Source: Sphingobacteriales bacterium (GTDB lineage Bacteria > Bacteroidota > Bacteroidia > Chitinophagales > Chitinophagaceae). From it: a stretch of 64,000 nucleotides of DNA. The notes under the pieces were generated by a model. That model did no database searches. It worked only from the letters and a program-made list of their open reading frames with translations, and had not been told where the DNA came from. Within the stretch, counting starts at the first letter, position 1; each line of letters starts with the position of its first letter. The position numbers were made by a program, and so were the translations under genes. Location: positions 1 through 64,000 of the forward strand of contig JACQDV010000092.1 of NCBI GenBank assembly GCA_016200915.1. The letters run 5' to 3'. Of the stretch, positions 35,797 to 43,907 are shown piece by piece.

Positions 35797-36297
35797 CTAA
35801 CGGCTGGCATTTCTTTTTTCTTCTTCTTCCATTATTTTTAAAATTTTGCGCAGATAAATAACATCTAATTGGTCTTTAGGCCGGTTCACCGCTTCCTTAT
35901 TTGCTATTAGATGATTAATATGTAAAAAAGGAACTTTTATGCCATTCAAATCCGCAACCCTTGCCATTTTATAACAGGCATCAAAATCAAGATGCTCAAG
36001 CCCTTTCATGGATGTCATTATATCCAGAATTATGCCGTTGGCTATATAAAATTGTGTCCACCCGGGTACAAATTCCATTGTCTCAATTGAAGGATAATCA
36101 CCATAACCCAATTCTTTAAATGTAGCCCTTAAACCTTTCCTGCCTTGTTCCTCATCTTTCAGCCAAAGGTCAGTATCTTTTGTGGCACGAATGTAACCAT
36201 GCATGTTTACAGCAAAACCGCCAACCATTATGTATGTAACACCATTCTTATTTAAGGTATCCCAGAATTTGAGCAGGCCATCATCCATTATATCCAT
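35797..36297 (-). CDS. Nucleotidyltransferase-fold protein (DUF6036-like)
   Basis: 166 residues. The N-terminal motif YIMVGGFAVNMHGYIRATKDTDLWL has the GG...(x)D.D pattern of minimal nucleotidyltransferases, with Asp residues in KDTDLWL and later in IILDIMTSM as metal ligands. Related families include the toxin AbiEii and MNT-type antitoxins, but a role cannot be assigned. It follows the small gene at 36308-36511 by 10 bases, forming a two-gene unit. Two ATGs (36297 and 9 bases later) are possible starts. Confidence 0.8.
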   Translation of the reverse strand: MDIMDDGLLKFWDTLNKNGVTYIMVGGFAVNMHGYIRATKDTDLWLKDEEQGRKGLRATFKELGYGDYPSIETMEFVPGWTQFYIANGIILDIMTSMKGLEHLDFDACYKMARVADLNGIKVPFLHINHLIANKEAVNRPKDQLDVIYLRKILKIMEEEEKRNASR

Positions 36298-36553: not shown

Positions 36554-38320
36554 TTACGCTACTTTCTGCTGTTTTTCAAACTGCATTTGATGCAACTTAT
36601 AATAATAACCTTGCTGAGCCAGCAATTCATCGTGAGAACCCAACTCTTTTATTTCACCTTTATCCAACACTAAAATTTTATCGGCCTTGCGAATGGTAGA
36701 GAGACGGTGGGCAATGACGATAGATGTTCTTCCGGCAATTAAGGTATCAATGGCTTTTTGAATAAGCTGCTCACTTTCGGTATCTATAGAAGAAGTAGCT
36801 TCATCCAGAATCAATATGGAGGGGTCGTATAATAAAGTGCGGATGAAAGAAAGTAGCTGCCGTTGTCCCATTGACAGGGTGGCACCTCTTTCCATTACAT
36901 TATAATCATAACCACCGGGCAACTGCATAATGAAATCATGCATGCCAATTAATTTGGCTGCTTCAATCACCTGTTCTTTGGTTATTTCAGGATTACGAAG
37001 GGTTACATTATCCATTACTGAGCCGGAGAATAAAAATACATCCTGCAATACCACTCCTATCTTACTACGTAACGCATCTAACTGATAGTTTTCAATATTT
37101 ACATCATCGATTCTAATGGTGCCTTTTTGAATATGGTACAAACGATTTAATAAACTGATGATGGATGTTTTACCACTGCCGGTATGACCCACTAATGCAA
37201 ATGTTTCTCCGGGATTAATAATGAAAGAAATATTTTTTAAAACATAATTCTCTTCCACATAAGCAAAAGATACATGGTCAAATTGCACCTTTCCTTTTAT
37301 ATGTCCTGTTGGTGCATATGCATCGGCTGCTGATGGCGGAATAAAATCTTCATTGTCTAATACTTTAAAAACTCTTTCACTCGCCACCATTCCCATTTGC
37401 AGCACATTGAATTTATCAGCTATCACTCTTAATGGACGGAAGAGCATATTTAACAGCAGCATAAAACCTATTACCACACCAACTATTTCTTTGCCTTCAT
37501 TTTCAGGCAGGCCCAATGCCTGGTGAGCACCAAACCAAACGAGTAATCCTAACGATAAAGCCAATATAATTTCAACAACGGGGAAGAAAATTGAATAAGC
37601 AAAAATAGCTTTGATATTAGCGTTACGATGTTCTTTGTTGATATTTTTAAACTTTTCAAACTCCCTGTCTTCAGCTGCAAATGCCTGTACAATTTGCATA
37701 CCGGTGATATGCTCCTGTACAAATGCATTTAAACTGGCCACTGCATTTCTAACTCTATGAAACGATTTGTTTACACTCTCTTTAAAATAATAAGTGGCGA
37801 TGATGAGTATTGGAAATGGAATTAAACAAATCAATGTCAGTTTCCAGCTGATCCAGAACATCGAGAAAAGAATGGCAACGATTGAAAGCAAATCGGCTAG
37901 TATTGGTATTAATCCTTCTGCAAAAATATCGTTGATGGTTTCTATATCATTGATAGTTCTGGTGGTTAATGTACCAATCGGTGTTTTATCAAACTGGGAA
38001 AGATTTAATCCCAATATTTTATTATACACTTTCACCCGCATATCTTTTACCACTGTTTGCCCTAACCATGCAGTTATAAAAGTGAAGTAAAAGCGAAGAA
38101 TGGTTTCAATAATAATCAGCAGTATTTGCCAGAAGGTTATTTGCAATAACAAATCAGCTAAGCTATGCTGAATATAAACGTTAACTGTTTTCTGAATTAA
38201 AAAGGGGCGTATGGGAGTTATAACCGCCAGCACAATAGCCAGCGTTATAGAAATATAAAACTTCTTCTTGTATGGTGCTGCAAACTGAAAAACTCTTTTC
38301 AGCAAACTGAAATCAAACAT
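36554..38320 (-). CDS. ABC exporter, fused membrane and ATPase domains
   Basis: 588 residues from the ATG at 38320 (MFDFSLLKRVFQFAAPYKKK), preceded by an AGGAAAG stretch; a GTG at 38341 would add seven residues. N-terminal six-helix ABC membrane domain, then a nucleotide-binding domain: Walker A GHTGSGKTS, signature LSMGQRQLLS (Met instead of the usual Gly at the third place), Walker B ILILDEATSSID, and the switch His in VIAHRLS. Half-transporter of the MsbA/LmrA-like type; substrate unknown (lipid or drug). Unrelated in position to the MsbA-like gene at 54.2 kb. Confidence 0.92.
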   Translation of the reverse strand: MFDFSLLKRVFQFAAPYKKKFYISITLAIVLAVITPIRPFLIQKTVNVYIQHSLADLLLQITFWQILLIIIETILRFYFTFITAWLGQTVVKDMRVKVYNKILGLNLSQFDKTPIGTLTTRTINDIETINDIFAEGLIPILADLLSIVAILFSMFWISWKLTLICLIPFPILIIATYYFKESVNKSFHRVRNAVASLNAFVQEHITGMQIVQAFAAEDREFEKFKNINKEHRNANIKAIFAYSIFFPVVEIILALSLGLLVWFGAHQALGLPENEGKEIVGVVIGFMLLLNMLFRPLRVIADKFNVLQMGMVASERVFKVLDNEDFIPPSAADAYAPTGHIKGKVQFDHVSFAYVEENYVLKNISFIINPGETFALVGHTGSGKTSIISLLNRLYHIQKGTIRIDDVNIENYQLDALRSKIGVVLQDVFLFSGSVMDNVTLRNPEITKEQVIEAAKLIGMHDFIMQLPGGYDYNVMERGATLSMGQRQLLSFIRTLLYDPSILILDEATSSIDTESEQLIQKAIDTLIAGRTSIVIAHRLSTIRKADKILVLDKGEIKELGSHDELLAQQGYYYKLHQMQFEKQQKVA

Positions 38321-38400
38321 TTTTTTCTTTCCTGTCTCCACGTGTTAAAAAATATTCTGCAAATGTAGCACAGTAGTGATGAATGAAAAACCATCCATCC

Positions 38401-40584
38401 TTAATTGCTGTCTCCCATCGCTTTTTTGTAGGCCTTTAAGAAAATTGCGCCAAGGTTTTTATGCGGTGGTATATAGTTACTGAAGCGTTCTTTACTTTCC
38501 CCGTTAGGAAACTGAGCAGCCAGCCCTTTCCACATATTCAGCCATTCTACGTTTTTACCGGCTCTTATATTTTCGGTCAATGTTTTTAATATTACATCAT
38601 TCACCGCACCGGCGCCAATTTCTTTGGAGGATATGATATGTGCATCTTCACAATGAGCTAATATATCATTCATATTCTTATAACCACCACAGGAACCCAG
38701 CACTACAATTTTACCGGATGATGGCAACTGGTCAATGGTATATTTAACCCAGTAACTGTGTCCACGATGAACAATTATAGTAGGATTTAAATTATTTGCT
38801 TTTAGATATTTTGCCAGATGAGCCTGTGCTGTTGAATCCTGGTAAGTATCATTATCCAGCGGACGGTTTACATAAATCCAGAATGGTTTGCCTTTTAATG
38901 ATTTAATAGTAACCCACTCATCATTTCCCGTTACACTCCATTCGGTTTTATTGGAGAAAAGATTGATATACTTTGGAAAGAAGTTTTTACCATCATCATC
39001 ACCATAAAAGAAAACCTGCATAATGGTTCTTCCGGCCGTGTCAGATAATGAACTATTGCTAACCGTATAAACCGGCGGAATACCCAGCTTATCTGAAATA
39101 TCAATAGTAGAATCAGAAGCTGATTTAAAAATGGTTTGAATGATAGAATAAATCACGGAACCTTTAGTATTCTTCTCTTTTCTTGCCCTGTCTAAACTTT
39201 TTTGAATACGATCGAGCATCAAATATTTTATTTCAGCATTATTAATGCCACCATACGAATCAGCTACGTCCATTGCATCTTCTAATGTATTGTTTTTTTC
39301 GAGATTACTTACAAAACCATTCATCAGCATTCTTCCACTGGCACTGTCCATGGAAGAAAGAAAATCGTCTAACTGGTCATAAGCTGCTGTCATTTTAATA
39401 AACTTCTTAAAATGATCCAGCTTTACACTCATCAGTAATGAATCACCTCTTCTTACCGCTAATTTATTCATCATTCGTTTGTAAGAATTAATAAACGTAG
39501 AGGTATAAATAATATCGTCAGTCAAAACAATAGCATAATAAATTTCCTGTGGCGTTAATGGTTCAAGGCATTTGAAACGAACCGCATCTGGTTTTTCATG
39601 CAACTCGTTCATCACATTTACAAAAGTTTCTTTTGCCTTTTTTTCCAGCATATCTTCTAAGTAACTGTAAAAGATGGGGTCTTCATTCTTCATTCTGCGT
39701 TCCGTATAACTCATCTTTGTTTTTACCAGCAACTGGTAATATTTCACTTCATCATTTAAAGAAGCGCCTGCTTCATCAAAAGATTGTTTGTTATTGAGGA
39801 GATCATCAAAGAATGGAAATAGTTTTTGTCCTGATTTCAAATCTGCAATCCTCACCATCAACCGCACTTTAGGATTGGTGCTCCTGCGGATCATTGATCC
39901 TTCCTGTGTTCCCATGGATTGAGCATAACGAATCATTTCAAACGGTACCCTTAAGCAAGCCTGCTCTAACAAACTATCTGCATCGGCCCCGTTTTTATAT
40001 GGCAACAAACCAGGAATGATGGTTTCAGGATGAGGGATGGTATTCTTTAAATACAACATCTTTTTTGACAAAGCATAACCAGGATTATCAAAAAAGATAT
40101 TTGCCAGTAAAGTTCCCACTTCAAAAGGCATCTGGTCAACCAGCTGTGCCATGTTTTGTCCTTTAATATTCTCTTTCATCAATTCCTCATAAAAAGAAAC
40201 TAATTGCGGAGCCATGCTCGCCGGAAATTTTCCTGCCCGGTATTGCAGCGTAAAATCGAGTAATAATTTATCTAAATAAGAAAGGTATCTTACTTTATCG
40301 TTATTTGTTTTTAATGCGGAGTCCAGTTCAATGGTTCTTTGCAGTTCATCAATCTTACGGATAAAGGCATCTGTTATTTGCAGGTTGATGTCCTCATTTT
40401 TAGAAAGATTAACTAAGTTATCCTTTTTACCATCTAATTTATCAATGGCTTTTTGCTGCTTATCTACTTTATCGTGAAAGTATAAACGACCGGGAGGGAT
40501 AACAAGATTGGTGGTATCAAATCCCCCGGCATAAGAGATGAGAGCGAATAAAAAGAAAAATGGAGTTAGTAACGTTTTCCGCAT
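38401..40584 (-). CDS. Secreted/periplasmic protein with candidate caspase-fold (clan CD) peptidase domain
   Basis: 727 residues. Signal peptide 1-19. Residues about 30-500 are mostly helical and unrecognised. The last 200 residues run strand (MQVFFYGDDDG), helix, strand (PFWIYVNRP), helix (QAHLAKYLKANN), strand ending in His (PTIIVHRGHSYW: His606, His609), helix, strand ending in Cys (GKIVVLGSCGGY: Cys632). This alternation, with His and Cys at the ends of neighbouring strands, is the layout of clan CD cysteine peptidases (caspases, gingipains, CHAT); RGHS compares with the SGHG of metacaspases. I therefore propose a cysteine peptidase. No family name is certain. A TATTTTTG box lies upstream. 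Confidence 0.72.
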   Translation of the reverse strand: MRKTLLTPFFFLFALISYAGGFDTTNLVIPPGRLYFHDKVDKQQKAIDKLDGKKDNLVNLSKNEDINLQITDAFIRKIDELQRTIELDSALKTNNDKVRYLSYLDKLLLDFTLQYRAGKFPASMAPQLVSFYEELMKENIKGQNMAQLVDQMPFEVGTLLANIFFDNPGYALSKKMLYLKNTIPHPETIIPGLLPYKNGADADSLLEQACLRVPFEMIRYAQSMGTQEGSMIRRSTNPKVRLMVRIADLKSGQKLFPFFDDLLNNKQSFDEAGASLNDEVKYYQLLVKTKMSYTERRMKNEDPIFYSYLEDMLEKKAKETFVNVMNELHEKPDAVRFKCLEPLTPQEIYYAIVLTDDIIYTSTFINSYKRMMNKLAVRRGDSLLMSVKLDHFKKFIKMTAAYDQLDDFLSSMDSASGRMLMNGFVSNLEKNNTLEDAMDVADSYGGINNAEIKYLMLDRIQKSLDRARKEKNTKGSVIYSIIQTIFKSASDSTIDISDKLGIPPVYTVSNSSLSDTAGRTIMQVFFYGDDDGKNFFPKYINLFSNKTEWSVTGNDEWVTIKSLKGKPFWIYVNRPLDNDTYQDSTAQAHLAKYLKANNLNPTIIVHRGHSYWVKYTIDQLPSSGKIVVLGSCGGYKNMNDILAHCEDAHIISSKEIGAGAVNDVILKTLTENIRAGKNVEWLNMWKGLAAQFPNGESKERFSNYIPPHKNLGAIFLKAYKKAMGDSN

Positions 40585-40777: not shown

Positions 40778-41458
40778 ATGGAAAATAAAACAAAGAAGAT
40801 TTTAGTTGCAGATGATGAGCCGGATATTTTGGAGATTTTGAACTACAACCTCATTAATGAGGGTTACACTGTTATTACTGCAAAAAACGGAACCGAGGCT
40901 TTGGATAAAGCCAAACAATATCATCCCGATCTCATCATTCTTGATATAATGATGCCGGGAATAAATGGGATTGAAGTTTGTAAAATTCTTCGCATAATTC
41001 CTGAATTCAAAGAAACACTCATCATTTTCTTAACTGCTTTAAGCGATGAAGGCACACAGGTGAAAGGTTTGGAAGAAGGAGCCGATGATTATGTAAATAA
41101 ACCGATTAGTCCGAAAGTTTTAATAAGCCGGGTAAATGCATTGTTTCGCCGCACCAACCGTAATGCAGATGAAAAGATCATTAAGATTGGTGATATGGTG
41201 ATTGACCGGGAACGTTATATCATCACTTTTAAAGGCAAAGAGATCATTCTTGCTAAAAAAGAATTTGAATTACTGGCTTTATTAGCTTCCCGGCCGGGCA
41301 GGGTTTTCCTGCGCAATGAAATATTAAACCAGGTGTGGGGACAGGATGTAATTGTTGGTGACCGCACCATTGATGTACATATCCGCAAAATCCGCCAGAA
41401 ATTAGAAAGCGATTGTATTACAACTGTAAAAGGTGTAGGATATAAATTTGAGCTTTAA
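40778..41458 (+). CDS. OmpR/PhoB-family response regulator
   Basis: 226 residues. Receiver domain with acidic pocket DDEPD (Asp12/Asp13), phosphoacceptor Asp56 (LIILDIMMPG), Thr in FLTALSD and Lys in YVNKPISP. Then a winged-helix DNA-binding domain with the GRVFLRNEILNQVWG and RTIDVHIRKIRQKL stretches. Paired with the histidine kinase 95 bases downstream. Such PhoB-like regulators in Bacteroidota respond to phosphate, envelope or oxidative signals; the signal here is not evident. Confidence 0.96.
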   Translation: MENKTKKILVADDEPDILEILNYNLINEGYTVITAKNGTEALDKAKQYHPDLIILDIMMPGINGIEVCKILRIIPEFKETLIIFLTALSDEGTQVKGLEEGADDYVNKPISPKVLISRVNALFRRTNRNADEKIIKIGDMVIDRERYIITFKGKEIILAKKEFELLALLASRPGRVFLRNEILNQVWGQDVIVGDRTIDVHIRKIRQKLESDCITTVKGVGYKFEL

Positions 41459-41553: not shown

Positions 41554-42606
41554 ATGTTTAATATTAAAAATCTTTCTCCCAACCAGGTAGCTGCCATTAC
41601 GGCAATGGCTATTTCAATTATTGCCGGGCTGGCTGATTTTGTTTTCATACATAACTGGATCATTGCTTCTCTCAGCTTTGTAGCGCTATTTGGCATCAGC
41701 TATTTTTTAATCCGTTATTTTTTGGAACGTTTTATCTACCGCAAGATCAAACTCATTTATAAATTCATCTATCAAACCAAAGCCACTAAAAGAGAAGAGT
41801 TCTATTATAAAAATATTTTACCCCAAAAAGGAATTGATGAAGTAAGAGAAGATGTAGAAAAATGGGCAGAGCAACGTAAAGCAGAGATAGAGTTATTAAA
41901 ACAAAATGAACAATTCAGAAGAGAGTTTTTACAAAATCTTTCTCATGAATTTAAAACTCCCATATTCGCCATACAGGGTTATGTAGATACTTTATTAGGC
42001 GGTGCATTAAATAATCCTGAAGTAAATAAAAGGTTTTTAGAAAATGCTTCCCGCAATATTCAACGCTTAGCCAATTTGGTTGGTGACCTGGATGAAATTT
42101 CCCGGCTGGAAAGCGGCTCTCAGCCCATTCATAAAACGGAGTTCATCATCCAGGAACTGATCAGCGAAGTATTTGAATCGCTTTCCATAAAAGCCGAGAA
42201 GGCTAATATTTCTACGCTCTTTAAAAAAGGTTGCGAAACGCCACCGGTAACTGTTTTTGCTGATAAGGAAAAAATAAGACAGGTATTGATCAACTTAATT
42301 CACAATGCTATTAAATATGGTAAGAGTGGCGGAGAAATTGAAGCCAGTATTTACCGGCTGGATGGAGAAAGAATTTTAATTGAGATTAGTGATGATGGAC
42401 ATGGAATTGCAGAAGAACATTTGCCCCGCATATTTGAGCGTTTTTACCGAACCGATCTTGCCCGGAGCCGCAAAGAAGGTGGCAGCGGATTAGGTCTTGC
42501 CATTTGCAAACATATTATTGAAGCTCATGGCCATAATATTCATGTACGCAGTAAAATTGATGTGGGTACTACTTTTGGATTTACGCTGGATGCAAAAGAA
42601 AAATAG
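41554..42606 (+). CDS. Sensor histidine kinase (PhoR-like)
   Basis: 350 residues. Two N-terminal membrane segments (about 12-32, 37-55) with almost no periplasmic loop, a coiled-coil linker (REDVEKWAEQRKAEIELL), a dimerisation domain with the phosphorylated His131 (LSHEFKTPIFAIQGYV) and a catalytic ATPase domain with N box (NLIHNAIKYG), G1 (DDGHGIAEEHL) and G2 (GGSGLGLAICKHI). Lacking a large sensing domain, it probably senses the membrane or an accessory protein. Cotranscribed with the regulator. Confidence 0.95.
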   Translation: MFNIKNLSPNQVAAITAMAISIIAGLADFVFIHNWIIASLSFVALFGISYFLIRYFLERFIYRKIKLIYKFIYQTKATKREEFYYKNILPQKGIDEVREDVEKWAEQRKAEIELLKQNEQFRREFLQNLSHEFKTPIFAIQGYVDTLLGGALNNPEVNKRFLENASRNIQRLANLVGDLDEISRLESGSQPIHKTEFIIQELISEVFESLSIKAEKANISTLFKKGCETPPVTVFADKEKIRQVLINLIHNAIKYGKSGGEIEASIYRLDGERILIEISDDGHGIAEEHLPRIFERFYRTDLARSRKEGGSGLGLAICKHIIEAHGHNIHVRSKIDVGTTFGFTLDAKEK

Positions 42607-43197: not shown

Positions 43198-43803
43198 TTA
43201 TTCGTTCATGAATTCGTTAGCCAATAAAAGTGTAATCTCAAATTTTTTTGTCCGTGGTGATTTTCCAAAACAAAATGTTATATCCCTAATTCCTTTGTCT
43301 TCTTCTTTACGTGTCGAATATTGTGCAATGTGCCCAACGTCTTTGTCATACCCGGTCTTTTGTTTTGTTGAAAGCGGTGCAAAGGTTTCTATGAGTTTAT
43401 TGTAAAATTTTTCTGCGTCTATTTTATTGTCAAATTGAACACACCAATTAACGCCAAGTAGTTTTTTAATTTCAGGTGCTTCACCAATTGAGGCTTCAAT
43501 GTAGCCCGAATCTATTTTTAAGCCAGGCAAAGGGCTTTTAGTAAATATAAAAATGTGTCTGTAGTTCCATGCTTCTTTGTCAGTCTTTAATTGCATGTTG
43601 ATGTTCAAATTACTTTGTCTAACTACTGTGTCACTATGATGCAGGTTTTGCACAGTCATTAGCGTGTCCACCAAAGAACTTGAAGCTTTTTTGATGTCAA
43701 CACCAAAATACAAGTTCTTTAATGCGTTTTCAAAAGTTAAAGTTTGAGACATAGTAAGTGTCGAAGTAAAAAATGTAAAAATTATGATGAATGTCCGGGT
43801 CAT
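43198..43803 (-). CDS. Secreted protein of unknown function
   Basis: 201 residues from the ATG at 43803 (MTRTFIIIFTFFTSTLTMSQ), giving a clear signal peptide; a longer reading to 43872 would hide it. After the leader: LTFENALKNLYFGVDIKKAS and later DKIDAEKFYNKLIETFAPLS-like helices with strands between. I recognise no family. It stands alone between an unusual intergenic stretch and the propeller-phosphoesterase gene, and may have been acquired as a single-gene cassette. Confidence 0.65.
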   Translation of the reverse strand: MTRTFIIIFTFFTSTLTMSQTLTFENALKNLYFGVDIKKASSSLVDTLMTVQNLHHSDTVVRQSNLNINMQLKTDKEAWNYRHIFIFTKSPLPGLKIDSGYIEASIGEAPEIKKLLGVNWCVQFDNKIDAEKFYNKLIETFAPLSTKQKTGYDKDVGHIAQYSTRKEEDKGIRDITFCFGKSPRTKKFEITLLLANEFMNE

Positions 43804-43907
43804 GATCTTATGGAATACAACATTATTTTTAGCACCGTTTGTGGCTTTGTTGGAAAAAAAATCATGCATCAATTTAACTAAAAGTACTTACTAAAGTTTA
43901 TTTTATA

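Follow-up and report, generated by a model that had tools for sequence, protein, structure and literature searches.

A putative exported cysteine peptidase with a caspase-like domain, conserved across the Chitinophagaceae

The first 64,000 nucleotides of contig JACQDV010000092.1, from the genome of a Sphingobacteriales bacterium placed in the Chitinophagaceae (assembly GCA_016200915.1), carry a gene for a protein of 727 residues. This whole stretch of DNA is referred to below as the window, and the protein as the window protein. With a probability of about 0.72 it is a cysteine peptidase exported from the cytoplasm, probably to the periplasm, with a C-terminal domain of the caspase type (clan CD-like), and it founds a family of its own. 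This reading is carried by a histidine and a cysteine present in every relative that covers the site, and by structural models that place the two residues where clan CD peptidases have their catalytic dyad. A candidate new clan CD cysteine peptidase had been put forward from the letters of the window alone, and this original prediction is supported by the conservation and the predicted structures described here.

The gene and its export signal

The gene and the segment encoding its putative signal peptide are located as follows.

38401..40584, reverse strand: putative exported caspase-like cysteine peptidase gene (open reading frame (ORF) of 727 amino acids plus stop)
40525..40584, reverse strand: probable N-terminal signal peptide, residues 1 to about 20 (judged from the sequence by eye; no lipobox seen)

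A search of its own genome found the gene in a single copy. The nearest relative (locus L002) is 94% identical at the protein level, with a nonsynonymous divergence (dN) of 0.035 against a synonymous divergence (dS) of 1.2, values that indicate purifying selection and hence a working, selected gene. The N-terminus, MRKTLLTPFFFLFALISYAGG, has by eye the appearance of a typical export signal. A hydrophobic 12-mer lies within residues 1-35 in 55 of the 57 named alignment rows that begin with Met, and a lipobox-like motif is present in three. The proposal that a signal peptide places the protein outside the cytoplasm agrees with these N-termini. An export signal is likewise recognizable by eye in three of the four relatives from Azospirillum, the fourth being annotated with a start that is too late. 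No Por secretion tail was detected on the window protein in the Pfam-A search. The export-like N-terminus, the location of the catalytic domain at the C-terminal end and the lack of a Por tail together lead to the proposal of the periplasm, and the protein is thus probably exported and periplasmic.

An invariant histidine and cysteine

Both motifs named in the original prediction, VHRGHSYW with His606 and His609 and VVLGSCGGY with Cys632, are found in the ORF translation. The conserved stretches of the gene are listed below, with the residue numbering of the window protein.

38752..38769, reverse strand: HRGHSY motif, residues 606-611, with the proposed catalytic His609 after strand 3 (strand 603-607; His609 in 123 of 123 rows)
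38683..38697, reverse strand: GSCGG motif, residues 630-634, with the proposed nucleophile Cys632 after strand 4 (strand 626-628; Cys632 in 123 of 123 rows)
38989..39003, reverse strand: acidic GDxDG loop, residues 528-532, after strand 1 (possibly a pocket for P1, the residue before the cut, or a metal site)
39499..39579, reverse strand: conserved scaffold stretch, residues 336-362, with invariant R336, T361 and S362 (126 of 126 distinct rows)

Invariance of His609 and Cys632 among homologs had been set beforehand as a test, and it was found throughout. The first alignment holds 59 rows, 57 of which, the window protein included, cover the site, the other two ending earlier at contig ends; both residues occur in all 57. 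A broader alignment of 126 distinct rows takes in other families and Azospirillum, and here 123 rows cover the site and three fall short. All 123, from Bacteroidota and Azospirillum, have the pair, and the spacing between the two residues is 23 in 122 of them and 22 in one. The pair is equally complete when the domain rows are thinned by identity, at 101 of 101 rows (below 85% identity), 36 of 36 (below 60%) and 17 of 17 (below 50%).

Thirteen of the 651 columns that are filled in at least 118 rows are fully invariant. Three are in the helical part of the protein (R336, T361 and S362) and the others are in the C-terminal domain (R607, G608, H609, S610, G630, C632, G633, W681, Y704 and P707), with seven of the thirteen falling in two motifs, RGHS and G-x-C-G. 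Cys632 is the sole invariant cysteine. The next-best cysteine column within the window protein reaches 61 of 125 rows, which makes a conserved disulfide unlikely, and a gapped cysteine column before the protein's first residue reaches 37 of 75. Of the two histidines marked in the original prediction His609 alone never changes: His606 is kept in 122 of 123 rows, one copy at locus L028 having Asn there yet retaining His609 and Cys632. A third histidine, His329, is lost in all four Azospirillum proteins. Ser631 is present in all rows but one, and the combined motif reads His-Ser...Ser-Cys. The acidic residues Asp529 and Asp531 are found in 124 and 122, respectively, of 125 distinct rows. In both phyla, many rows show RF...YTSS in the scaffold stretch 336-362.

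Predicted structure

The window protein is predicted by AlphaFold2 to consist of two parts.

39115..40494, reverse strand: all-helical scaffold, residues 31-490 (AlphaFold2 full-length model)
38404..39042, reverse strand: caspase-like alpha/beta domain, residues 515-727 (AlphaFold2 domain model and structural matches)

The full-length model, built from 55 rows, has a mean predicted local distance difference test (pLDDT) score of 89.2 and a predicted template modelling (pTM) score of 0.75, and shows helices only at residues 31-490, followed by the alpha/beta domain. A model of residues 497-727 alone, built from 57 rows, reaches a pLDDT of 93.7 and a pTM of 0.91. From residue 520 on strands and helices alternate, as had been proposed for the C-terminal part. 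The first half of the domain is predicted to contain strand 520-526, helix 530-541, a hairpin (549-553/557-562), strand 568-573 and helix 582-596; the second half contains strand 603-607, helix 610-618, strand 626-628, helix 635-644, strand 649-653 and helix 659-674, after which further helices follow. Strand order was deduced from the order of these elements and from structural matches rather than from coordinates.

According to a passage of PMC4357240, the catalytic dyad of clan CD has its His at the end of strand 3 and its Cys at the end of strand 4. In the window protein His609 is two residues past strand 603-607 and Cys632 is four past strand 626-628. With strands numbered by sequence order, the two residues follow the third and fourth helix-linked strands, which corresponds to the clan CD dyad placement and suggests a catalytic role. 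The same source, in its passage on clan CD structures, describes five conserved helices, from which family C80 departs, and a glycine adjacent to the histidine (PMC4357240). Helices 530-541, 582-596, 610-618, 635-644 and 659-674 fit these five by sequence order, and Gly608, immediately before His609 in 123 of 123 rows, supplies the glycine. Set against the six-stranded clan CD sheet, with five parallel strands and one antiparallel, the domain would offer five helix-linked strands and a hairpin before the second, ordered by sequence alone. A helix also connects strands 4 and 5 in the model, an element that separase and gingipain R are described as having added relative to caspases (a passage of PMC4626109).

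Sequence searches

The window protein matches no Pfam-A or NCBIfam family at E values up to 10, and searches of Protein Data Bank (PDB) chain sequences gave nothing significant, whether the query was the protein itself, a profile of 55 rows or a broad domain profile of 22 rows. The original prediction that the rest of the protein is unlike known families agrees with these results. Clan CD families are also absent from the Pfam matches listed for 55 relatives (25 of 37 families listed) and from those of 13 more distant relatives (17 of 17 families listed). Such matches as the relatives have are weak and belong to scattered families; the strongest is DUF2666 at E 0.00085 in one of the 13 distant proteins. 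More specifically, at E 10 the window protein gave no profile match to CHAT (PF12770), C25 gingipain (PF01364), C11 clostripain (PF03415) or C14 caspase/metacaspase (PF00656), and none of the four is among the families listed for the relatives. For separase (C50) the result is limited to Pfam-A, which gave the window protein no family at E 10, no search having been made with a dedicated separase model. The genome itself carries separate C25 genes, and its C14 matches sit on other contigs.

Profile-to-profile comparison, which had been suggested as a check, did not provide a link. With hhalign the domain profile was compared with domains drawn from related genomes, namely CHAT (28 sequences), C25 (20), C11 (12) and C14 (24). 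Control profiles of response regulators, ABC proteins and kinases gave E values of 0.15 to 0.32, and reversed profiles gave 0.031 to 0.63. The values for CHAT (0.03-0.04) are no better than the reversed-profile control at 0.031, and those for C25 are 0.65 and 0.67. Cys632 is matched to the catalytic Cys in the top-scoring local alignments with CHAT, C11 and C14 but not in that with C25, an outcome that was counted as no evidence, and the global alignments are meaningless. Full-text literature searches returned no description recognised as that of such a family. Since sequence provides no tie to CHAT, C25, C11 or C14, the protein family is best described as an unnamed one of its own with a layout that resembles clan CD.

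Structural comparison and the clan CD assignment

When the full model was compared with known structures by VIA-align, clan CD proteases were among the best matches: the caspase-like Csx29 (7y85_D) at Z 8.8 (142 residues aligned, 3.3 Å), separase at Z 8.7 and the C11 peptidase iotapain at Z 8.4. A second Csx29 entry scored Z 8.6 with a deviation of 13.9 Å. Csx29, separase and iotapain all rank within the first eleven full-model matches, interspersed with small guanosine triphosphatases (GTPases). With the domain alone, iotapain aligns over 187 of 231 residues with Z 8.7 and 4.7 Å, the longest of the best 50 alignments, and Csx29 and separase are not among these 50. The top match of the full model, DdvA (Z 9.0, 250 residues), was set aside as too loose at 9.6 Å. 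A search of viral structures gave, among its best 50 matches, many G domains and unnamed proteins, and no protease was named. For comparison, the DALI Z scores given in a passage on the C11 peptidase PmC11 are 9.2 against caspase-7 and 7.6 against a TcdB domain (PMC4850288), so that Z scores of this size appear typical of distant clan CD families.

Several observations weigh against the assignment. Small GTPases score as well as the proteases, reaching Z 8.9 with the full model, and with the domain alone Gtr/Rag and Arf GTPases tie with iotapain at Z 8.7 over 137 residues and 3.2 Å. Foldseek places small GTPases first, with a best E value of 5e-4 and a single match at or below 0.001. In VIA-align a best Z of 7 to 8 is typical of models that match nothing clearly. 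The antiparallel C-terminal strand of caspases is missing from the models or is at most a two-residue bridge. The residue following the histidine is the invariant Ser610, and the common His-Gly is absent. No sequence or profile match to a clan CD family was found, and the hhalign E values against CHAT, C25, C11 and C14, 0.03 to 0.7, are not significant. Finally, strict invariance extends beyond the two dyad motifs.

The likeness to GTPases could be taken at face value in two ways. A GTPase function is unlikely, as judged from motifs: the Walker A motif GxxxxGK[ST] occurs in none of 123 domains, and Lys533 is not conserved. This candidate was rejected, for the missing Walker A motif and for the reason that Ras-like matches are expected for a caspase-type sheet. 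The Ras and caspase sheets share their parallel core order, and the GTPase matches therefore fit a caspase-type domain as well. Alternatively, a Cys-His enzyme unrelated to clan CD may have arisen on a GTPase-like or other alpha/beta sheet, performing thioester or acyl transfer, for instance, in place of proteolysis. The first rank of small GTPases in Foldseek, their tie on Z, the missing profile link to clan CD and the [NT]KxD motif found in seven of 123 domains are all in keeping with such an enzyme. Its improbability, at about one chance in ten by our estimate, follows from the arrangement of His and then Cys after successive helix-linked strands, which is that of clan CD, from the longer alignment of iotapain (187 residues, against up to 150 for GTPases among the best 50 matches) and again from the lack of Walker A.

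The invariance of W681, Y704, P707, R336, T361 and S362 would also suit a protein that is not an enzyme, in which the conserved residues maintain structure or bind a metal or ligand. A lone invariant Cys and an invariant His at two strand ends, in an RGHS and a G-x-C-G context, argue against this, as does the retention of the pair in duplicated copies (L028, L122 and L123), and such a role appears very improbable.

The caspase fold claimed in the original prediction is supported, within limits. Neither of the two outcomes named there as refuting, loss of His609 or Cys632 in a homolog and a fold lacking the caspase sheet order, was seen; the order of elements agrees with the claim, and iotapain, Csx29 and separase are among the best matches, but small GTPases score equally and strand order was deduced indirectly. 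Because of that tie, membership of clan CD is likely rather than certain.

Comparison with named clan CD proteases

By structure comparison separase, Csx29 and the C11 peptidases are nearer to the window protein than the gingipains are, and separase is nearer by spacing as well. The His motif of separase (MEROPS family C50) is GHG, whereas the window family has GHS; the window protein differs further in being exported, in having one alpha/beta domain in its model and in showing no sequence match. The two have in common a helical N-terminal part before a C-terminal caspase-like domain and a helix between strands 4 and 5 (described for separase in part of PMC4626109), together with a full-model Z of 8.7. 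Their His-Cys spacings are both short, 26 for His2003/Cys2029 of human separase in a passage of PMC10317155 and 23 in the window protein.

In Csx29, a tetratricopeptide repeat (TPR)-CHAT protein, a helical scaffold likewise precedes the caspase-like domain that carries His and Cys. As described in part of PMC10028731, Csx29 works with Cas7-11, contains a pseudo-caspase CHAT1 domain and has a spacing of 43 (H615, C658), in all of which it is unlike the window protein, which moreover has no CHAT Pfam match.

The C11 peptidases (clostripain, PmC11 and iotapain) are secreted bacterial caspase-like peptidases, and iotapain provides the longest structural alignment. Their His-Gly...Ala-Cys motif, given in an excerpt of PMC12445089, is absent from the window family, and the scaffold of the window protein precedes the catalytic domain whereas PmC11 has a C-terminal helical domain (a passage of PMC4850288).

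Gingipains and PorU (C25) are exported proteins of Bacteroidota, and gingipain R shares the helix between strands 4 and 5 (PMC4626109, in part). The gingipain-like character and spacing suggested by the original prediction are not supported: no C25 profile matches, hhalign leaves the cysteines unaligned, and the C25 spacing is 34 in all 15 of 20 domains where the motif search found both residues, against 23 here. The excerpt of PMC4357240 prints the dyad of the gingipain RgpB as His221/Cys244, although the neighbours Gly210 and Gly212 suggest His211, and no spacing was taken from it. Spacings for C11 (from two of 12 sequences) and CHAT (from 14 of 28) were measured but not used. A precedent for classification without sequence similarity is the spore protease YabG, which was argued to belong to clan CD on its dyad and specificity, according to an excerpt of PMC12445089; YabG is a sporulation protein, and the two are likened by description only.

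Proposed mechanism

In an exported peptidase of this kind, Cys632 would be the nucleophile that attacks the peptide bond in a specific substrate and His609 the general base, a division of roles suggested by the layout of the domain. The Asp529/Asp531 pair at the start of helix 1 may favour a basic residue before the cut. The guess is modelled on RgpB, where Asp163 in helix 1 binds the P1 Arg (a passage of PMC4357240), and the acidic GDxDG loop could instead be a Ca2+ site. The helical scaffold would bind the substrate or gate the active site, as the helical parts of separase and Csx29 do, and its stretch with R336, T361 and S362 may lie in contact with either active site or substrate. In Csx29 a helical activation region contacts the active site (part of PMC10028731), and separase is controlled through loops of its TPR-like part (part of PMC10317155); by analogy, similar control of the window protein is possible.

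A more far-reaching version, which we hold as tentative and rather doubtful, would make the protein a new clan CD separase-like switch outside the cytoplasm, whose scaffold (R336 and T361-S362) senses or binds a partner and opens the site for one specific cut. It might then serve an entire bacterial family, the Chitinophagaceae, as a core regulatory protease, one that occurs in Azospirillum too.

Distribution of relatives

Relatives are found in 144 of 147 whole genomes of the Chitinophagaceae and in 98 of 100 of its genera, some genomes having two or three matches. A pattern scan of genome contigs located 57 loci, the titles of which name Chitinophagaceae, genera such as Segetibacter and Flavisolibacter, Chitinophagales, Sphingobacteriales or unspecified Bacteroidetes/Bacteroidota/Bacteroidia, two of them giving no more than bacterium. 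In a sample of the phylum 14 of 395 genomes were positive, all of them in the same family and with the same tally for three queries; the 20 genomes listed as without a match, beyond which there are 361 more, include none of the family. A search of the class with the domain alone gave matches in 35 of 395 genomes. Nine of these belong to the Chitinophagaceae, 13 belong to two other families and match at E < 1e-60, and the remaining 13, at E 0.001 to 0.8, were taken as chance. The relatives in the two other families are full-length, with an identity of 23-28% over the whole protein that rises to 32-42% within the domain.

Outside the Bacteroidota, relatives annotated as 'hypothetical protein' occur on four plasmids of Azospirillum (Alphaproteobacteria), the plasmid records found with a relative being all of this genus. 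These proteins have 591-738 residues and are 22-28% identical over the matched part, with E values down to 4e-21. Two of the four (L253 and L254) have a short repeated segment between the scaffold and the catalytic domain. Phage records contained no match, and viral contigs no confirmed relative (nine pattern matches). Copies of the gene lie side by side in several genomes, as at L028 (2441-4669 and 4914-7118), L122 and L123.

Gene neighbourhood

The gene is flanked by the following genes in the window (Pfam accessions in brackets).

36554..38341, reverse strand: gene of the ATP-binding cassette (ABC) exporter type, directly downstream on the same strand (PF00664, PF00005)
40778..41458, forward strand: divergent response regulator gene (PF00072, PF00486)
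41554..42606, forward strand: histidine kinase gene, adjoining the regulator (PF02518, PF00512)

Neighbours were counted for 109 copies, a copy entering each count if it had 400 or more bases of room; many loci have a flank of only 1.5 kb, and the counts are therefore lower bounds. Upstream, at least 78 of 106 such copies have a divergent response regulator; downstream on the same strand, at least 69 of 104 have an ABC exporter gene. Most of the more divergent copies are without both. At 13 distant Bacteroidota loci no regulator or kinase was detected by blastp and there was one weak ABC match (27%), and the neighbours at six of these loci are housekeeping-like by eye (for example MutS and CTP synthase). 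In three of four Azospirillum records the gene is near DUF1194 and LysE genes. The DUF1194 gene is just upstream on the opposite strand (L252, L253 and L254), with ethanolamine ammonia-lyase genes beyond. As no partner is constant across copies, no functional link is claimed for the regulator or the exporter. A role in defence was considered and set aside, the PADLOC matches being weak and unrelated.

Clan CD includes transpeptidase and transamidase enzymes, and surface attachment is used by Bacteroidota. The same fold and dyad might serve to join rather than cut, in an extracytoplasmic transpeptidase or transamidase comparable to PorU (C25), which is termed a sortase in an excerpt of PMC4804311, or GPI (glycosylphosphatidylinositol) transamidase (C13). 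The protein looks exported and most of its relatives are in Bacteroidota, which would suit such an enzyme; the lack of a constant partner gene, with regulator and exporter missing near the more distant copies, and the presence of a relative in Azospirillum speak against it, and we consider it unlikely, though a little less so than an enzyme built on a GTPase-like sheet.

Two further ORFs were noted in the window. One of 166 amino acids (35797-36297, reverse strand), nucleotidyltransferase-like by eye and without a Pfam match at 1e-5, is situated between the exporter and ATP synthase A chain genes and has relatives in seven loci. The other (43198-43872, reverse strand) encodes an exported-looking protein of 224 amino acids with no Pfam match at E 10.

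Conclusions

A gene carried by 144 of 147 genomes of one bacterial family is yet without a Pfam or NCBIfam family. Should its product lack protease activity, the invariant Cys-His pair would serve some other chemistry within a caspase-like fold, which would be the larger surprise. If it is an active peptidase, it would add a new family to clan CD, and the scaffold-plus-caspase design of separase and Csx29 would exist outside the cytoplasm too. For researchers of the Bacteroidota it would then represent a conserved protease in which two residues can be targeted by mutation.

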